In this document: in pieces, positions 9,264 through 32,341 of the stretch
Position numbering within the stretch: position 1 is the first letter of the stretch
How the letters are laid out: every line of letters begins with the position of its first letter
Source of the DNA: Bacillota bacterium
Lineage (GTDB): Bacteria > Bacillota > Dethiobacteria > DTU022 > UBA8154
NCBI GenBank assembly: GCA_012839215.1
Contig: DUNV01000150.1
Location: forward strand, 1-36,499
DNA: 36,499 nucleotides
Reading direction: 5' to 3'
The notes under the pieces: generated by a model
Database searches by the model: none
Told to the model about the DNA's origin: nothing
What the model saw: the letters and a program-made list of their open reading frames with translations, nothing else
Translations under genes and position numbers: made by a program

Positions 9264-9373
9264 TTACAATAATTGAATAAATTCCTCAACTGATAGACCC
9301 ACATCGTTTAGTATTTTTTTTCAAGGGCTCCAATGCAGTCCAAACCGGAAACAAGAGGTATTTTGGGGATCAT
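9264..9373 (-). pseudogene. hicA: hicA toxin remnant, internally deleted and frameshifted
   Basis: An ATG overlapping the hicB stop (ATGA) opens a reading frame MIPKIPLVSGLDCIGALEKK, then Tyr and TAA. This matches the N-terminus of HicA toxins (P-x-x-S-G-x-x-x-I-x-A-L-x-K). One frame over, the next codons read LNDVGLSVEEFIQLL and stop, matching the usual HicA C-terminus (R-x-x-G-L-S-V-E-E-F-x-x-L-L). The central 35-40 codons, including the catalytic His region, are gone. The antitoxin gene upstream is therefore an orphan. Confidence 0.8.
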
Positions 9374-9579
9374 CTTTCCAATACCACACTGCCAACGATT
9401 ATACTGCCAACCGGGTTTTCTTCTTCATCAATACACAACTCTATTGCCTCTTTTATGTTTTTTAGAGCCTCATCTATTGTGTCCCCTTGGGAGTAGCATC
9501 CCTTAAATATGGGACAGGATATAACATACCCATTCCCATCTTGTTCAATGATGACGGGGTAATTTTTCAATTCAATCAC
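9370..9579 (-). CDS. hicB: HicB family antitoxin, orphaned
   Basis: 69 residues: MIELKNYPVIIEQDGNGYVI, then SCPIFKGCYSQGDTIDEALK and NIKEAIELCIDEEE. This is the partial-RNase-H fold typical of HicB (x-x-E-x-D-G-x-G-Y-x-x-x-x-P-x-x-x-G-x-x-x-x-G-x-T-x-x-E-A). It lacks the C-terminal DNA-binding extension of longer HicB proteins. It would normally neutralise the HicA mRNA interferase, whose gene downstream is broken, so this gene may be on its way to decay or protect against other HicA proteins. The frame itself is intact. Confidence 0.85.
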   Translation of the reverse strand: MIELKNYPVIIEQDGNGYVISCPIFKGCYSQGDTIDEALKNIKEAIELCIDEEENPVGSIIVGSVVLER

Positions 9580-10441: not shown

Positions 10442-10594
10442 GATCCGGCGGGGAATATAAAGCCGGATAAGGCCAAGTCAAGTGAAAAGATTGACGGGGC
10501 GGTGGCCATGATTATGGCCCTGGATCGGTGTATCAGGAATGAGGGGATTAGGGATAACTCGGTTTACGATGAGCGGGGATTAGTGGTGTTTTGA
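10442..10594 (+). pseudogene. Phage terminase large subunit remnant (C-terminus)
   Basis: The frame encodes DPAGNIKPDKAKSSEKIDGA, then VAMIMALDRCIRN and finally SVYDERGLVVF with a TGA stop. This is the C-terminal signature of HK97-type terminase large subunits (N-I-K-P-D-K-x-K-S-x-x-K-I-D-G...A-x-x-M-A-L-D-R...Y-x-x-R-G-x-x-x). The ATPase and most of the nuclease domain are missing; upstream the frame runs into unrelated sequence over the XRE promoter region. It marks a decayed prophage, together with the portal fragment at 12260. Confidence 0.8.
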
Positions 10595-10605
10595 GCCTGC
10601 GGATA

Positions 10606-10636
10606 TATTGCATATCGCAATACAGAATGGTAAAAT
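10606..10636 (+). promoter_or_regulatory. Promoter with overlapping palindrome for the relBE-type pair
   Basis: TTGCAT (10608-10613), 17-bp spacer, TAAAAT (10631-10636). The palindrome TATTGC-ATATC-GCAATA (10606-10622) covers the -35 box and spacer, where the antitoxin/toxin complex of RelBE-type systems usually binds to repress its own operon. Confidence 0.65.
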
Positions 10637-10662
10637 ATAAATACAAGAAAGGAGCGATATGC

Positions 10663-10974
10663 ATGTCCAAAACCACAAGTATTTTTGCTCGGGTAGAGCC
10701 GGAAATAAAAGAACAAGCGGAAATGGTGTTAGGCAAACTTGGCATACCCATGTCAAACGCCATTAATATTTTTTTGAGGCAGGTTATTTTGCAAAACGGG
10801 CTGCCCTTTGAAGTTAAAATTACACATAACAGACCTCTTGCCACGGGGGATTTAACACCTGAAGAATTTAACCGGGAAATTGAAAAAGGCATAGATGATT
10901 TAAAAGCGGGCAGGGTTGTATCTGCGGATAAGGTAGCCGAGCGTATGAATAAGGAATATGGGCATGAATTATAA
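10663..10974 (+). CDS. RelB/DinJ family antitoxin
   Basis: 103 residues. The N-terminal ribbon-helix-helix reads TTSIFARVEPEIKEQAEMVL, then GKLGIPMSNAINIFLRQVIL, the standard RelB/DinJ pattern (V-x-x-x-x-K-x-x-A-x-x-x-x-x-x-x-G-x-x-x-S-x-A-I-x-x-F). The C-terminal half (DLTPEEFNREIEKGIDDLKA) should wrap the toxin. AAAGGAGC precedes the ATG at 10663; an upstream in-frame start at 10591 lacks a site. It overlaps the toxin gene by 11 bp and is transcribed from the palindrome-bearing promoter just upstream. Confidence 0.88.
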   Translation: MSKTTSIFARVEPEIKEQAEMVLGKLGIPMSNAINIFLRQVILQNGLPFEVKITHNRPLATGDLTPEEFNREIEKGIDDLKAGRVVSADKVAERMNKEYGHEL

Positions 10975-11311
10975 AATTATTTATACCCAAGAATCAGAAC
11001 AGGATCTCATAAATATTTACCGATACATTGCCATCAACCTATCGGTGCCAGAGACTGCAAAAAGGCAAACAGACAGAATCATGAAGGCAATTGAAAGCCT
11101 GGATGAAATGCCCCTCAGGCATAAACTCTATCAAAATGAACCCTGGCACAGCAAAGGTTTAAGGGTTCTTTCGGTAGATAATTACCTTGTGTTTTATGTA
11201 GTAGTTGAGGAAGAAAAACTGGTTGCAATAATGAGAATAATGTATGGTGGGCGTAATATAGAATTGCAACTATCGAACATAAAAGATGAAAGTAGTTTAT
11301 CGTCTCTGTAG
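10964..11311 (+). CDS. RelE/ParE family toxin
   Basis: 115 residues. Typical ParE/RelE fold: YKIIYTQESEQDLINIYRYI, then LDEMPLRHKLYQNEP, GLRVLSVDNYLVFYVV and AIMRIMYGGRNIE, the last being the common R-I-x-x-x-x-R-x strand. RelE toxins cut mRNA on the ribosome, ParE toxins poison gyrase; the sequence alone does not separate them. The ATG at 10964 is preferred over one at 10958 and lies inside the antitoxin gene. The frame is intact, so the pair may still work. It sits between the two phage gene remnants. Confidence 0.87.
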   Translation: MNYKIIYTQESEQDLINIYRYIAINLSVPETAKRQTDRIMKAIESLDEMPLRHKLYQNEPWHSKGLRVLSVDNYLVFYVVVEEEKLVAIMRIMYGGRNIELQLSNIKDESSLSSL

Positions 11312-12199: not shown

Positions 12200-12226
12200 G
12201 GCATCTCAACCGGGGTGCCTTTTTTA
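12200..12226 (+). terminator. Rho-independent terminator after the XRE/membrane pair
   Basis: GGCATC pairs with GGTGCC (one G-U) and is followed by six T. It closes the operon that ends at 12156. Confidence 0.7.
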
Positions 12227-12259
12227 TATCCAAAATTTAGGGGAGGTGAAACCCTTTGT

Positions 12260-12433
12260 ATGAAAATACCCATTCTATCTAGGCTATTTAAATCCCGGGC
12301 TGGGCCGAAAAATAGTCTTTGGCAAAATACCTATGCTTTTTTCTTCGGCCCTACACCCAGCGGCAAAACGGTCAACGAGCGCACGGCCATGGCAGCAGAA
12401 TCACCTTGTGATACCTGGGAGTGTTGTTTTTAG
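12260..12433 (+). pseudogene. Phage portal protein remnant (N-terminus)
   Basis: The frame starts MKIPILSRLFKSRAGPKNSL and continues FFFGPTPSGKTVNERTAM. This matches the start of HK97-type portal proteins (F-x-R-L-F...F-G-x-T-x-S-G-x-x-V-N-E-x-T-A-M). After residue 44 homology stops and 13 unrelated residues precede the stop at 12433. Terminase and portal genes are normally adjacent in this order, so this and the fragment at 10442 are pieces of one prophage, now separated by about 1.7 kb of toxin-antitoxin and regulator genes. Confidence 0.75.
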
Positions 12434-12437
12434 CTAT

Positions 12438-12466
12438 TTGGCAAGGTGATTTTCTTGTGCTATAAT
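12438..12466 (+). promoter_or_regulatory. Promoter of the selenoprotein gene
   Basis: TTGGCA (12438-12443), 17-bp spacer, consensus TATAAT (12461-12466), 32 bp before the ATG at 12498. The spacing and -10 match are excellent. Confidence 0.75.
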
Positions 12467-12497: not shown

Positions 12498-12764
12498 ATG
12501 ATCGTAGAATTAAACCCTAGAGCGAGACAGTTTCTTTTAAAAAAAAATGAGGGGGCTGTAACCCTGGACTTGATCCTGGGCGGGAGCTGATGCACCCTAT
12601 CCTATCGGCCTGCCGTGAAAGCAGGCGAGCCATCCGATAAGGAAAAATATCACGAGACCAGGCATGATGACATCAAAATTTATATCTCGCAAGCCGTAAA
12701 GGCCAGGCATATACATATTTTTAGGCATTGGCCTTTTGGCGGGCTCGACGCTCACCTATCCTAA
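12498..12764 (+). CDS. CC/Se-motif family selenoprotein (UGA read as selenocysteine)
   Basis: Reading through one in-frame TGA (12588-12590) gives 88 residues: MIVELNPRARQFLLKKNEGA, then VTLDLILGGS-Sec-CTL, then PAVKAGEPSDKEKYHETRHD and DIKIYISQAVKARHIHI, with Sec31 next to Cys32. Length, the N-terminal beta-strand/helix opening, the doublet position, the P-x-V-x-x-G-x-P pattern and the D-x-I-K-x-Y-x-S strand match the CC/Se-motif (seleno)protein family as I know it. In cysteine homologues the doublet is CC. Coding potential continues unbroken past the TGA, a promoter lies upstream, and a SECIS-like hairpin begins 17 nt after the codon. The function is unknown; a thiol/selenol redox or metal-binding role is inference. 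The 3' end overlaps thiL tail to tail by 4 bp. Confidence 0.82.
12588..12626 (+). promoter_or_regulatory. Bacterial SECIS-like element: UGA codon plus hairpin
   Basis: The UGA at 12588-12590 is followed after 17 nt by a perfect 6-bp stem GCCTGC (12608-12613) / GCAGGC (12621-12626) with loop CGUGAAA. Bacterial SECIS hairpins lie inside the coding region just downstream of the UGA and expose a G in the apical loop for SelB. Position and loop fit. Confidence 0.65.
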
Positions 12765-13792
12765 CATTTTTTGACAGGTGCCTGGCACCTATCAAAGTGA
12801 TCGAAACTGTAATGCCCCAATCTGTTGACAGCACCATTTGCCTCCAGTATCCTGACCCCTTCATCTTCGGCCAGCACCTGGCCAATGACGGATAAATTTG
12901 TTCCCAACCCATCAATGGCCCTTTTTATGGGGGCAAATAGATCGGGGGGAATGGTCATGAGAAGCTCATAATCCTCCCCGCCATAAAGGGCCCAGTCCAG
13001 AAAGTTTTTTTCGAGTGCAGCCGCAGCCTGTCTAACATTTTCACCGACAGGCAGTTGTGATGACAAGAGCAGGGCACCCACCCCGCTGTTTTCACAGATG
13101 TGGTACAAATCACCGGCCAGGCCATCGCTGAGATCGATCATCGCTGATGGTGGCCCGTTCCTGAGCAGCACCTCTGCCTCCCCCACTCGGGGGCGGGGCT
13201 CCAAATGGGCCGAAAGAAGGCTACGCACAGTTTCCGTATCCAGACCGGAAACTGTTTCATTTCCACACTGCCCCTTTATCAGAGCCAATCCCGCCGCCGA
13301 GGCACCTAGAAAACCCGTTACAGCAATGAGATCTCCTATCCTCGCCCCGGCACGTGTAATGGGGGGGCCATCAATCTCTCCGATAACAGCAACATCGAGG
13401 ATTATCTGGGGAGAGCGGACTGTATCACCTCCGATAATGGATACCTCAAATTCGTCCGCCAAGCGGTCCATACCGCGGTAAATGCCCTGGGCATATTCCA
13501 GCTCAAGCTCCGGCGGCCAGCCCGCCGAAACAAGAGCATACCTGGGCCGTCCGCCCATAGCGGCAATGTCGCTCAGGCTAACTGCCAGGGCTTTGCTGCC
13601 TAGCTGTTCCGGCATTATTTTGCCCCGGATAAAGTGGTGATCCTCCACCAGCATATCGCAGGTAACGAGCAGATTTTTACCCTCGCCCATGCGGATAACA
13701 GCAGCATCATCTCCGATGCCCACGAGAACAGAGCTATTGCCTGCCGACCTGATTCTTTTTGTCAGGGTATCGATCAGGGAAAACTCTCCCAT
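12761..13792 (-). CDS. thiL: Thiamine-monophosphate kinase
   Basis: About 343 residues from the preferred ATG at 13792 (GEFSLIDTLTKRI is the usual ThiL opening). Motifs: GIGDDAAVI and a downstream DMLVEDHHF, SLSDIAAMGGRPR, GGDTVRSP, DLSDGLAGDL and YGGEDYELL, the ATP/thiamin-phosphate and magnesium sites of the AIR-synthase-like fold. It phosphorylates TMP to the active cofactor TPP and is the last gene of the operon. A longer frame to 13891 exists, but its extra 33 residues are mostly repeat sequence (KGPSPCVPPCASRV). The C-terminal nine residues are also repeat-encoded. Confidence 0.93.
   Translation of the reverse strand: MGEFSLIDTLTKRIRSAGNSSVLVGIGDDAAVIRMGEGKNLLVTCDMLVEDHHFIRGKIMPEQLGSKALAVSLSDIAAMGGRPRYALVSAGWPPELELEYAQGIYRGMDRLADEFEVSIIGGDTVRSPQIILDVAVIGEIDGPPITRAGARIGDLIAVTGFLGASAAGLALIKGQCGNETVSGLDTETVRSLLSAHLEPRPRVGEAEVLLRNGPPSAMIDLSDGLAGDLYHICENSGVGALLLSSQLPVGENVRQAAAALEKNFLDWALYGGEDYELLMTIPPDLFAPIKRAIDGLGTNLSVIGQVLAEDEGVRILEANGAVNRLGHYSFDHFDRCQAPVKKC
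12770..12796. repeat. 27-bp palindromic repeat at the thiL/selenoprotein junction
   Basis: TTTGACAGGTGCC / GGCACCTATCAAA with a single central base and one mismatched pair. It encodes the last residues of ThiL (DRCQAPVK) and lies 6 bp beyond the selenoprotein stop, between two convergent genes. The shape resembles REP-type elements spread by RAYT-like transposases; no such transposase is in the window. Confidence 0.7.
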
Positions 13793-27552: not shown

Positions 27553-29435
27553 ACAAAAAGTATGATCAAGGGGACTCCCCCAGACAAGCAATGCACGGCC
27601 GGGTTGGCAGAGGACGCATGTTCATGGCCACCCCGCCGCAAAAAGCTAAAAATATCAAAAAAACTTTCCTTCATTTGCTCCATTATCTCGGCCCGCACAG
27701 CTTTCCGCTGCTGATCGTTTTTGCTATATCGATCTGTGGAACGATCTTTAACATTTTGGCTCCCAAGATCCTAGGTTCGGCCACAACAATACTCTTTGAG
27801 GGGGTCATGAAACGTCTCGGGGGCCTCCCGGCAGTAATTGATTTCAATCGTATCGGCCAGATCCTGCTGCTCCTGGTTTTTATCTACCTTTTTAGTGAGG
27901 CATTTTCCTATTTGGGCCAGTTTATCATGGCCGGAGTTGTGCAAAAAATAGTTTTTCGAATGCGCGAGGAAACCTATGCCAAACTGTCCCACCTGCCCCT
28001 CAAGTTTTTCGATGGCCATACCCATGGGGAGATTCTCAGCAGGGTAATTAACGACATGGATCTGATCGGCAGCACACTTGATCAAAGCCTCACCCATCTC
28101 ATTTCCGCCATCGTCACCGTCAGTGGTGTTTTGGTCATGATGCTGTTGATCAGTCCCATCATGACGCTGGTTGCCCTCGTCACGCTCCCTTTATCATACC
28201 TGGTGACGGCAAAAATAGCCGGTTATTCACAAAAAAGGTTTGCCGAACAGCAAAGGGTGCTGGGCAGGCTCAACGGTCATATCGAAGAAACCTACGGAGG
28301 GCATATCATCGTCAAATCCTTCGGCAATGAAGATAAGGCCATCAGGCATTTTAAAAAAATTAATGATAAACTCTACGATACCAATTGGCGCGCCCAGTTT
28401 GTTTCCGGAATTATTATGCCCCTGCTTGGTTTCATCAATAATATCAGCTATGTGCTGATCTGCATCATCGGGGCTGTTTTTGTCGTGCAGGGAAAAATCG
28501 TCATTGGGGATCTGCAGGCATTTATTCAGTATTCCAAAAACTTCCGGGAACCGATCGTGCAGTTCGCCAATATTGCCAACATTATTCAATCCACACTGGC
28601 CGCGGCCGAACGTGTCTTTGAGCTCCTGGATGAAGAGGAAGAAAGAACCGACGACGAGCAAAGCCTGGTGGAGTTTGCCCCCCGGGGCGACATTAGCTTC
28701 CAGAAGGTCACATTTGGTTATAGTGCTGAAACAACACTGATGAAGGATCTGGATATCTGCATCGAGGCAGGTCAAACAGTGGCAGTAGTCGGGCCAACGG
28801 GGGCGGGGAAAACAACCCTCGTTAATCTGCTGATGCGTTTTTACGAGATAGATGGCGGGAAAATCACGATTGATGGGGTAGATATCAGGCATATAGAACG
28901 GGGGACCTTACGGAGCCTTTTTGGTATGGTGCTGCAGGATACTTGGCTTTTCCAGGGGACGATCAGGGACAATATCGCCTATGGCAAGGAGGGGGCCACG
29001 GATGAAGAAATAAAACGTGCGGCCGGGGCCGCACATGCCGATCACTTTATTGGCACACTGCCCGGCGGATACAACACTATCCTTAATGAAGAGGCCTCTA
29101 ACATTTCCCAAGGGCAGAAGCAGCTCATCACTATCGCCCGTGCCATTCTGGCCGACCCGGCCATCCTGATCCTGGATGAGGCTACCAGCAGCGTCGATAC
29201 ACGCACTGAACTGTTAATTCAAAAAGCCATGGCCAGGCTCATGAAAGGGCGGACGAGCTTTGTCATCGCCCACAGGCTCTCCACCATCCGTGACGCTGAT
29301 ATAATACTTGTTATGGATGAGGGCGCAGTGGTGGAGAAAGGTACCAATAGCGAACTTTTATCCTTGGACGGGTTCTATGCTGCCCTTTATCAAAGCCGTT
29401 TTGATGCGGGAGGATCCTACCACGAGGCAGGATAG
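27549..29435 (+). CDS. Heterodimeric ABC exporter subunit with canonical site (BmrD/YheH-like)
   Basis: 628 residues. The N-terminal ~50 residues are polar and precede six membrane helices; ATPase domain has Walker A GPTGAGKTT, Q-loop GMVLQDTWLFQGTIRDNIAY, Walker B ILILDEATSSVDTRTE and switch His in VIAHRLSTI. Its signature is NISQGQKQLITIARAIL: SQGQ replaces SGGQ. So the partner's canonical SGGQ completes this subunit's catalytic site, while this degenerate signature faces the partner's degenerate Walker B. That is the usual one-active-site arrangement. Overlaps the upstream gene by ATGA. Confidence 0.93.
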   Translation: MNKKYDQGDSPRQAMHGRVGRGRMFMATPPQKAKNIKKTFLHLLHYLGPHSFPLLIVFAISICGTIFNILAPKILGSATTILFEGVMKRLGGLPAVIDFNRIGQILLLLVFIYLFSEAFSYLGQFIMAGVVQKIVFRMREETYAKLSHLPLKFFDGHTHGEILSRVINDMDLIGSTLDQSLTHLISAIVTVSGVLVMMLLISPIMTLVALVTLPLSYLVTAKIAGYSQKRFAEQQRVLGRLNGHIEETYGGHIIVKSFGNEDKAIRHFKKINDKLYDTNWRAQFVSGIIMPLLGFINNISYVLICIIGAVFVVQGKIVIGDLQAFIQYSKNFREPIVQFANIANIIQSTLAAAERVFELLDEEEERTDDEQSLVEFAPRGDISFQKVTFGYSAETTLMKDLDICIEAGQTVAVVGPTGAGKTTLVNLLMRFYEIDGGKITIDGVDIRHIERGTLRSLFGMVLQDTWLFQGTIRDNIAYGKEGATDEEIKRAAGAAHADHFIGTLPGGYNTILNEEASNISQGQKQLITIARAILADPAILILDEATSSVDTRTELLIQKAMARLMKGRTSFVIAHRLSTIRDADIILVMDEGAVVEKGTNSELLSLDGFYAALYQSRFDAGGSYHEAG

Positions 29436-31165: not shown

Positions 31166-31936
31166 TTACTTTTCCTTAAGGATACCTAGTTCATCGACTA
31201 ACTTGGGAAGGATTTCTTCTGATCTGCCCTTTAAAAATATATCCGCGATGGATGAAGTCAAGGCAGTTGGTTCCGGATTGATTTCGATGATGAAGGCGCC
31301 ATTGCTTTTGGCCATTGATGGCAGGCTGGCTGCAGGTTCCACCATTCCGGAGGTTCCCACAACGAGTACTGCCTCACATTGCTGTACATCAACACGCGCC
31401 TGCAACAAGGCAGCAGTGGGTATGGATTCACCAAAAAAGACAGCATCGGGTTTTAACAGACCTCCGCATGAAGGGCAATATGGCGGCAACGTATCAAGAG
31501 GGATTTCTGTGGATGGATAAAGTGCCCGGCATTCCATGCAAACAAGACGCCGGGTATTTCCGTGAAACTCAATAACTACCTTATTCCCGGCCTCCTGGTG
31601 CAGACCATCTACATTTTGCGTAATAATACTGAATAGAAACCCCATGCCTTCCATTCTTGCCAAGGAAAAATGGGCCGGGTTGGGATGGGCCTTTTCCACT
31701 ACTTCCTGGATTTCCCGCAACGCAATCCAGGATTTAGCCGGGTGTTTTAAAAAACGGTTGATTTCAGCCACCTCGGCTGGATCATATTTTTCCCAAAGCC
31801 CCCCTTTCCCCCGGAAAGGCATGATACCACTGGCAACCGAGATTCCGGCCCCAGTCAGGGCTACCACTTTTTTTGCCGAGGCAATTTTCCTTGCAGCAAT
31901 TTTCAAATCCTTTTCCTGCTTGCTAAGCTCCTCCAT
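31166..31936 (-). CDS. Sirtuin NAD-dependent protein deacylase
   Basis: 256 residues. GAGISVASGIMPFRG (NAD loop), TQNVDGLHQEAGN, catalytic His in EFHGNTRRLVC, zinc fingers C-x-x-C (CMEC and CPSC), GGLLKPDAVFFGE and the NAD-binding VVGTSGMVEPAASL. These cover all sirtuin core motifs; note I-M-P-F-R-G where many have I-P-D-F-R. The S-G-x-x-P-F substitution removes the Asp of the class II/III loop, so the acyl substrate may differ. Deacylates lysines, for example on acetyl-CoA synthetase. The ATG is 1 bp after the rsfS stop. Confidence 0.93.
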   Translation of the reverse strand: MEELSKQEKDLKIAARKIASAKKVVALTGAGISVASGIMPFRGKGGLWEKYDPAEVAEINRFLKHPAKSWIALREIQEVVEKAHPNPAHFSLARMEGMGFLFSIITQNVDGLHQEAGNKVVIEFHGNTRRLVCMECRALYPSTEIPLDTLPPYCPSCGGLLKPDAVFFGESIPTAALLQARVDVQQCEAVLVVGTSGMVEPAASLPSMAKSNGAFIIEINPEPTALTSSIADIFLKGRSEEILPKLVDELGILKEK

Positions 31937-32341
31937 TTATAGATCTCCCCTCCATTTCAAGGCTCCTTCGCTTTGCAAATCGGGGGGCGGCATCAGGCAG
32001 CCCAAATCGATCCCCTTTGCACCTCCCCAAAGACGTTCCAAATTATAAAAGGAACGCTCTTCAGGAAGAAAAATGTGTATAATCAGCGCCCCATAATCAA
32101 GCAATATCCATTTACCCTCCTGGTAACCCTCCTGTCGCAACAAGGGGTATCCGCCATCCAGCAAATTATCCTTTAGATGGACACAAAGCGCCTGGGTTTG
32201 TATTCTTGATGAACCGCTGCAGATAAGAAAGTAATCGGCAACAAGCGTTAGATTACCCATTTCTAGAAGTACAATATCCTGCGCTTTTTTTTCATTTAAA
32301 AAACGGACTGCCTCCAGGGCAAACTCTTTTGTCCCTAAAAT
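31937..32341 (-). CDS. rsfS: Ribosomal silencing factor, probably AUU-initiated
   Basis: 134 residues if started at the ATT at 32341. That frame gives LGTKEFALEAVRFLNEKKAQ, then DIVLLEMGNLTLVADYFLIC and SGSSRIQTQAL, matching RsfS from its very first helix. The only ATG (32260) would remove 27 residues that the family conserves, and no ATG, GTG or TTG lies between. AGGAGG precedes the ATT by eight bases. RsfS binds ribosomal protein L14 and blocks subunit joining under starvation. Start codon by inference; the gene itself is certain. Confidence 0.9.
   Translation of the reverse strand: MLGTKEFALEAVRFLNEKKAQDIVLLEMGNLTLVADYFLICSGSSRIQTQALCVHLKDNLLDGGYPLLRQEGYQEGKWILLDYGALIIHIFLPEERSFYNLERLWGGAKGIDLGCLMPPPDLQSEGALKWRGDL

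Follow-up and report, generated by a model that had tools for sequence, protein, structure and literature searches.

The DNA analyzed here, in the following called the window, comprises 36,499 nucleotides of contig DUNV01000150.1 from a member of the Bacillota. It raises the question of whether a TGA within an otherwise open frame at positions 12498 to 12764 of the forward strand terminates translation, marks a decayed gene or encodes selenocysteine. The frame starts with ATG at 12498, ends with TAA at 12762-12764 and contains, apart from a single TGA at codon 31 (12588-12590, forward strand), no further stop; the codon following the TGA is TGC (Cys32). The first-pass annotation had described 88 codons interrupted only by one TGA in front of a Cys codon (Sec31-Cys32), and all of its coordinates were reproduced. 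Translation through the TGA gave the 88-residue product MIVELNPRARQFLLKKNEGAVTLDLILGGSUCTLSYRPAVKAGEPSDKEKYHETRHDDIKIYISQAVKARHIHIFRHWPFGGLDAHLS, in which Cys32 is the only cysteine besides Sec31 and no cysteine follows residue 32.

As a selenoprotein reading presupposes, all four of the genes selA, selB, selC and selD were present in the source genome (2.06 Mb, 156 contigs, 97% complete). A tRNA-Sec with the anticodon tca (UCA) was found, selA is split into two pieces, one at an end of contig C109 and the other at an end of C79, and selB lies directly behind the second of these pieces. The selD gene (L018) harbors an in-frame TGA of its own within the motif AAGUASKIGPGDL, and is itself a selenoprotein gene of this genome. 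A reassignment of the genetic code was ruled out, because TGA serves as the ordinary stop for 10 of the 25 large open reading frames in the window.

When the product was compared with the NCBIfam profiles (TGA read as Cys), it matched NF041239, the "CC/Se motif family (seleno)protein" (Moor_selen_rel), with 59.7 bits, the curated cut-off being 40 bits. The match covers residues 1-74 and spans the TGA, which is in line with the earlier assumption that both flanks fit this family. The profile score, together with a TGA at codon 31 in the column of the 52 Sec and most Cys members, places the product in NF041239. At the level of the taxonomic family 11 of 23 genomes matched NF041239, at that of the class 45 of 98, and in the sample across the phylum 90 of 398, the majority of the matches holding exactly one TGA. 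The 14 control genomes gave no match, and the selenoprotein gene was absent from two genomes of the same genus. The record that contains one relative from the same taxonomic family (L035) bears the name of a Bacillota MAG. In another genome (G467, contig 13) two family matches at 31701-31967 and 28056-28307 were noticed, in which TAA and TAG, one of each, take the place of TGA. A search of the open literature for the CC/Se family name, whose signs are not searchable, yielded no publication.

An alignment of 69 members from the class, including that of the window, revealed an in-frame TGA in 54 of them. In 52 of these the TGA falls into the column of window residue 31, while the remaining two carry it one residue later and one residue earlier, respectively. 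Most of the 15 members without TGA have Cys in the same column, so that homologues do show Sec or Cys at this position, as the first-pass reading implied. Of the 52 members whose TGA falls into this column, only 8 have a Cys immediately after Sec; judging from the alignment, the adjacent Cys32 is not a general trait of the family. Amino acid identity to the five nearest relatives amounted to 40-47% in the part preceding the TGA and to 38-47% in the part following it, and on either side the second codon position was the best conserved, revealing conservation at the protein level past the TGA. These data also bear on the possibility that a 30-residue peptide ends at the TGA, the downstream frame being open by chance. 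Such a peptide is what translation table 11, taken literally, would give, as TGA ordinarily terminates translation in this genome. However, the 57 downstream residues match both the family profile and the relatives, and synonymous sites within the hairpin described below are constrained, leaving a short peptide with next to no probability.

The hairpin, for which the first-pass annotation had given a 6-bp stem and the loop CGUGAAA 17 nt after the UGA, was confirmed at 12608-12626 of the forward strand (GCCTGC-CGTGAAA-GCAGGC); its 7-nt loop lies 23 nt past the UGA. In the published model of bacterial SECIS elements (bSECIS; PMC13188914) the stem measures 4-16 bp, the loop 3-9 nt and the distance from the UGA 16-37 nt, and one of the first two loop nucleotides is a G, in many cases with G or U as the next base. 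The hairpin conforms to this model. Its region did not match any family in an Rfam scan, and the folding energy of the single sequence was not significant (z = -1.6; 17 of 200 shuffles were as good).

The codons for the motif PAVxAGxP (12609-12632, forward strand) are common to the constraint on the protein and that on the RNA. Among Sec-containing members, Pro38 is encoded by CCT in 40 of 46, Ala39 by GCC in 51 of 51, Val40 by GTG in 51 of 52 and Ala42 by GCA in 42 of 45 cases, whereas for Gly43 and Pro45, which are equally conserved as residues, all four codons are used. The CGUG of the loop was unchanged in 78 of 78 distinct Sec genes from the class and the phylum, which stem from many genera and are nearly saturated at their other third positions. 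Codons 38 and 42 pair through their synonymous third positions in 77 of these 78 genes (TA 66, CG 10, AT 1), a level reached by none of 5000 shuffles, which ignore kinship. In the actual register 412 pairs were counted; with the stem partner shifted by one to three bases there were at most 179. Covariation was not clear for the outermost pair, which joins codons 37 and 43 at their third positions (39 paired against 32.9 expected; equalled in 179 of 5000 shuffles), and therefore the conserved stem comprises the inner 5 bp. We also counted the exact 14-base motif CCTGCCGTGNNNGCAGG in the 98 genomes, with the reversed sequence as a control. It occurred 44 times, 40 of these within the NF041239 family, while the control occurred three times. 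The four matches outside the family were read as chance, one of them lying in a PhoH-like gene, where it falls on the codons for PAVEAGE.

Thus, it is comparative evidence and not folding energy that lifts the hairpin far above chance. Judged by its frozen synonymous codons and compensatory changes, which back the original guess of a SECIS-like structure, we regard the hairpin at 12608-12626 as a real SECIS element. SelB with Sec-tRNA(UCA) would bind it just behind the UGA, and selenocysteine would be put in at position 31 in place of termination, an event for which the comparative evidence is strong. Members without TGA mostly lack the PAVxAG motif. From the frozen codons, the invariant loop and the covariation we infer that this protein motif is largely a shadow of the RNA element, i.e., that PAVxAG may in large part be the SECIS itself. 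A prior statement to this effect was not found in the literature searched.

The same data speak to the possibility that the locus is a pseudogene, a decayed Cys-type member in which TGC or TGT mutated to TGA. Cys-type members do exist, 15 of the 69 aligned sequences being without TGA, and the gene adjoins a broken phage gene. Against this, the TGA occupies the same column in 52 members from many genera, and the gene has kept an intact frame, stop, promoter and hairpin, with the protein conserved beyond the TGA. Decay was counted as already refuted for the family, and for this copy we consider it very improbable. Weighing the comparative data together, we estimate at roughly 93% the probability that 12498-12764 is an intact selenoprotein gene belonging to NF041239, a figure that excludes its function.

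Upstream of the gene, a putative sigma-70 promoter (TTGGCA - 17 bp - TATAAT, preceded by the TG of an extended -10 region) was identified at 12438-12466 of the forward strand by a consensus scan with 11 of 12 matches; the consensus promoter with a 17-bp spacer and TATAAT had thus been given with the correct sequence. As the 600-bp stretch contains three promoter-like sites against 1.1 expected, this putative promoter alone is weak evidence. The previously noted placement between a prophage remnant and thiL was likewise recovered. On the 5' side, the portal protein of a phage is represented by an N-terminal fragment (12215-12433), which aligns over 57 residues with its counterpart from a Syntrophomonadaceae phage at 70% identity, and on the 3' side a convergent thiL-like gene with AIRS domains follows, whose stop overlaps the stop codon of the selenoprotein gene. 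A phage link for the selenoprotein gene was dropped, since a comparison with phage records gave no match. The neighbors within the window are toxin-antitoxin-like genes, HTH genes, the phage fragment and thiamin genes; a thioredoxin gene adjoining the selenoprotein gene was not found there. The toxin-antitoxin-like genes include a RelB-like antitoxin with a ParE-type toxin (10591-11311) and a HicB-like antitoxin (9370-9579). The thiL-like frame has as its 3' end (residues DRCQAPVKKC) a palindrome-like sequence, GACAGGTGCCTGGCACC at 12773-12789, of which two near copies exist elsewhere in the same genome.

Attempts were also made to assign a fold to the protein. An AlphaFold2 model built from the family alignment reached a pLDDT of 88 and a pTM of 0.75, and its best matches in the PDB were SufA (E 5.2e-4, TM 0.58), IscA and AQ_1857. 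As the TM-scores are moderate (0.5-0.6), this is a match at the level of the superfamily. Profile comparison yielded 97.3% with HesB-like selenoproteins and 95.8% with Cys-type IscA relatives, and in both cases the Sec column of the family aligned with the Sec/Cys column of the partner. Against the sequences of solved structures the family profile gave two insignificant matches only. The Pfam profile Fe-S_biosyn (PF01521) scored 12.1 bits, below its cut-off of 26.3, while 23 of 64 relatives matched it weakly, with a best value of 8.8e-5. By model and profile comparison, the CC/Se family is predicted to be a remote member of the HesB/IscA/SufA fold. The features that define PF01521 and the A-type carriers are missing, the fold being what they have in common.

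Regarding function, a thioredoxin or a thioredoxin-thioredoxin reductase fusion adjoins the gene or lies within about 1 kb of it in relatives from five other Bacillota families (f20, f44, f49, f55, f95). These are high-scoring members, and two of the five families are over-represented in the sample. Such neighbors in several relatives suggest a thiol/selenol redox role. We tentatively propose a thioredoxin-coupled, reversible thiol/selenol redox reaction of the Sec31-Cys32 pair, which is plausible though short of probable. Sec31 would be the nucleophile and Cys32, in this copy, the resolving residue; the oxidized pair would be reduced by thioredoxin. Three copies (L043, L052, L053) were also seen near a rubredoxin-like gene. 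The main alternative, in which the selenoprotein handles Fe-S clusters, metals or metalloids as a HesB/IscA-like carrier, would agree with the predicted fold, with Sec at the first Cys of the A-type carriers and with an RnfC-like gene near four copies from the window's own taxonomic family (L028, L030, L031, L032). The thioredoxin neighborhood in relatives and the lack of a C-terminal Cys-Gly-Cys, Cys32 being the sole Cys beside Sec31, speak against a carrier, which we hold somewhat less likely than the redox role.

Additionally, paralogues with two consecutive in-frame TGA codons, [GT]UUxxFxAPSGLxGKP, were detected at 12 loci in 11 Bacillota genomes (L087, L157-L167). Their sequence is conserved on either side, they possess a hairpin of their own, CCC[AG]TCAGGT..TGA[CT]GGG, with compensatory A-T/G-C pairs, and most of them score below the NF041239 cut-off. 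Judging from these sequences, it is possible that they are vicinal Sec-Sec proteins. The redox reading of the window protein can be extended to a speculative scenario for the entire family, which we hold conceivable. The CC/Se family would be a HesB/IscA branch that has lost cluster carriage and become a thioredoxin-dependent selenol redox enzyme, that has retained PAVxAG chiefly on account of the SECIS hairpin formed by its codons, and that includes a paralogous branch with a vicinal Sec-Sec pair.

The analysis turns a stretch that is hard to annotate into what is very likely a selenoprotein gene. It adds strong comparative support for a SECIS, a predicted fold and a testable function to a family that is otherwise known here from a curated profile alone. 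The near-invariant DNA signature, TGA followed after 18 nt by CCTGCCGTGNNNGCAGG, lets further copies be found in raw sequence. The frozen SECIS, the link to the fold and the UU paralogues may be new even to specialists.

Compared with known systems, the window protein has the length, the Sec/Cys position and the PAVxAGxP motif of NF041239, but it reads GGSUCT around Sec where the family more commonly has GGU(G/A)G. Its last 14 residues lie beyond the profile match, yet align with near relatives. With the bSECIS model (PMC13188914, Fig. 2A) the hairpin has in common a 6-bp stem, a 7-nt loop placed 23 nt from the UGA and a G at loop position 2 followed by U; it differs in its near-invariant primary sequence CCUGCCGUGNNNGCAGG, which is tied to the PAVxAG codons. 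The A-type carriers IscA, SufA and ErpA share the predicted fold and the position of the first conserved Cys, which Sec31 would occupy here. They hold their cluster by three cysteines, this central one and those of a C-terminal CGC; the latter is missing from the window protein, which therefore would not hold a cluster in the manner of IscA. HesB-like selenoproteins, i.e., PF01521 proteins with an in-frame TGA (PMC1794560, PMC11097638), occur in Bacillota relatives as well (L176-L187). The one from Methanococcus was found by 75Se labelling and mutagenesis and is without clear function (PMC11097638). These proteins have their own motif, GxGUGGPxFGL, whereas the window protein is sub-threshold for PF01521; similar size, the predicted fold and the aligned Sec columns indicate that the gene is probably related, at a distance, to those of the HesB-like selenoproteins.
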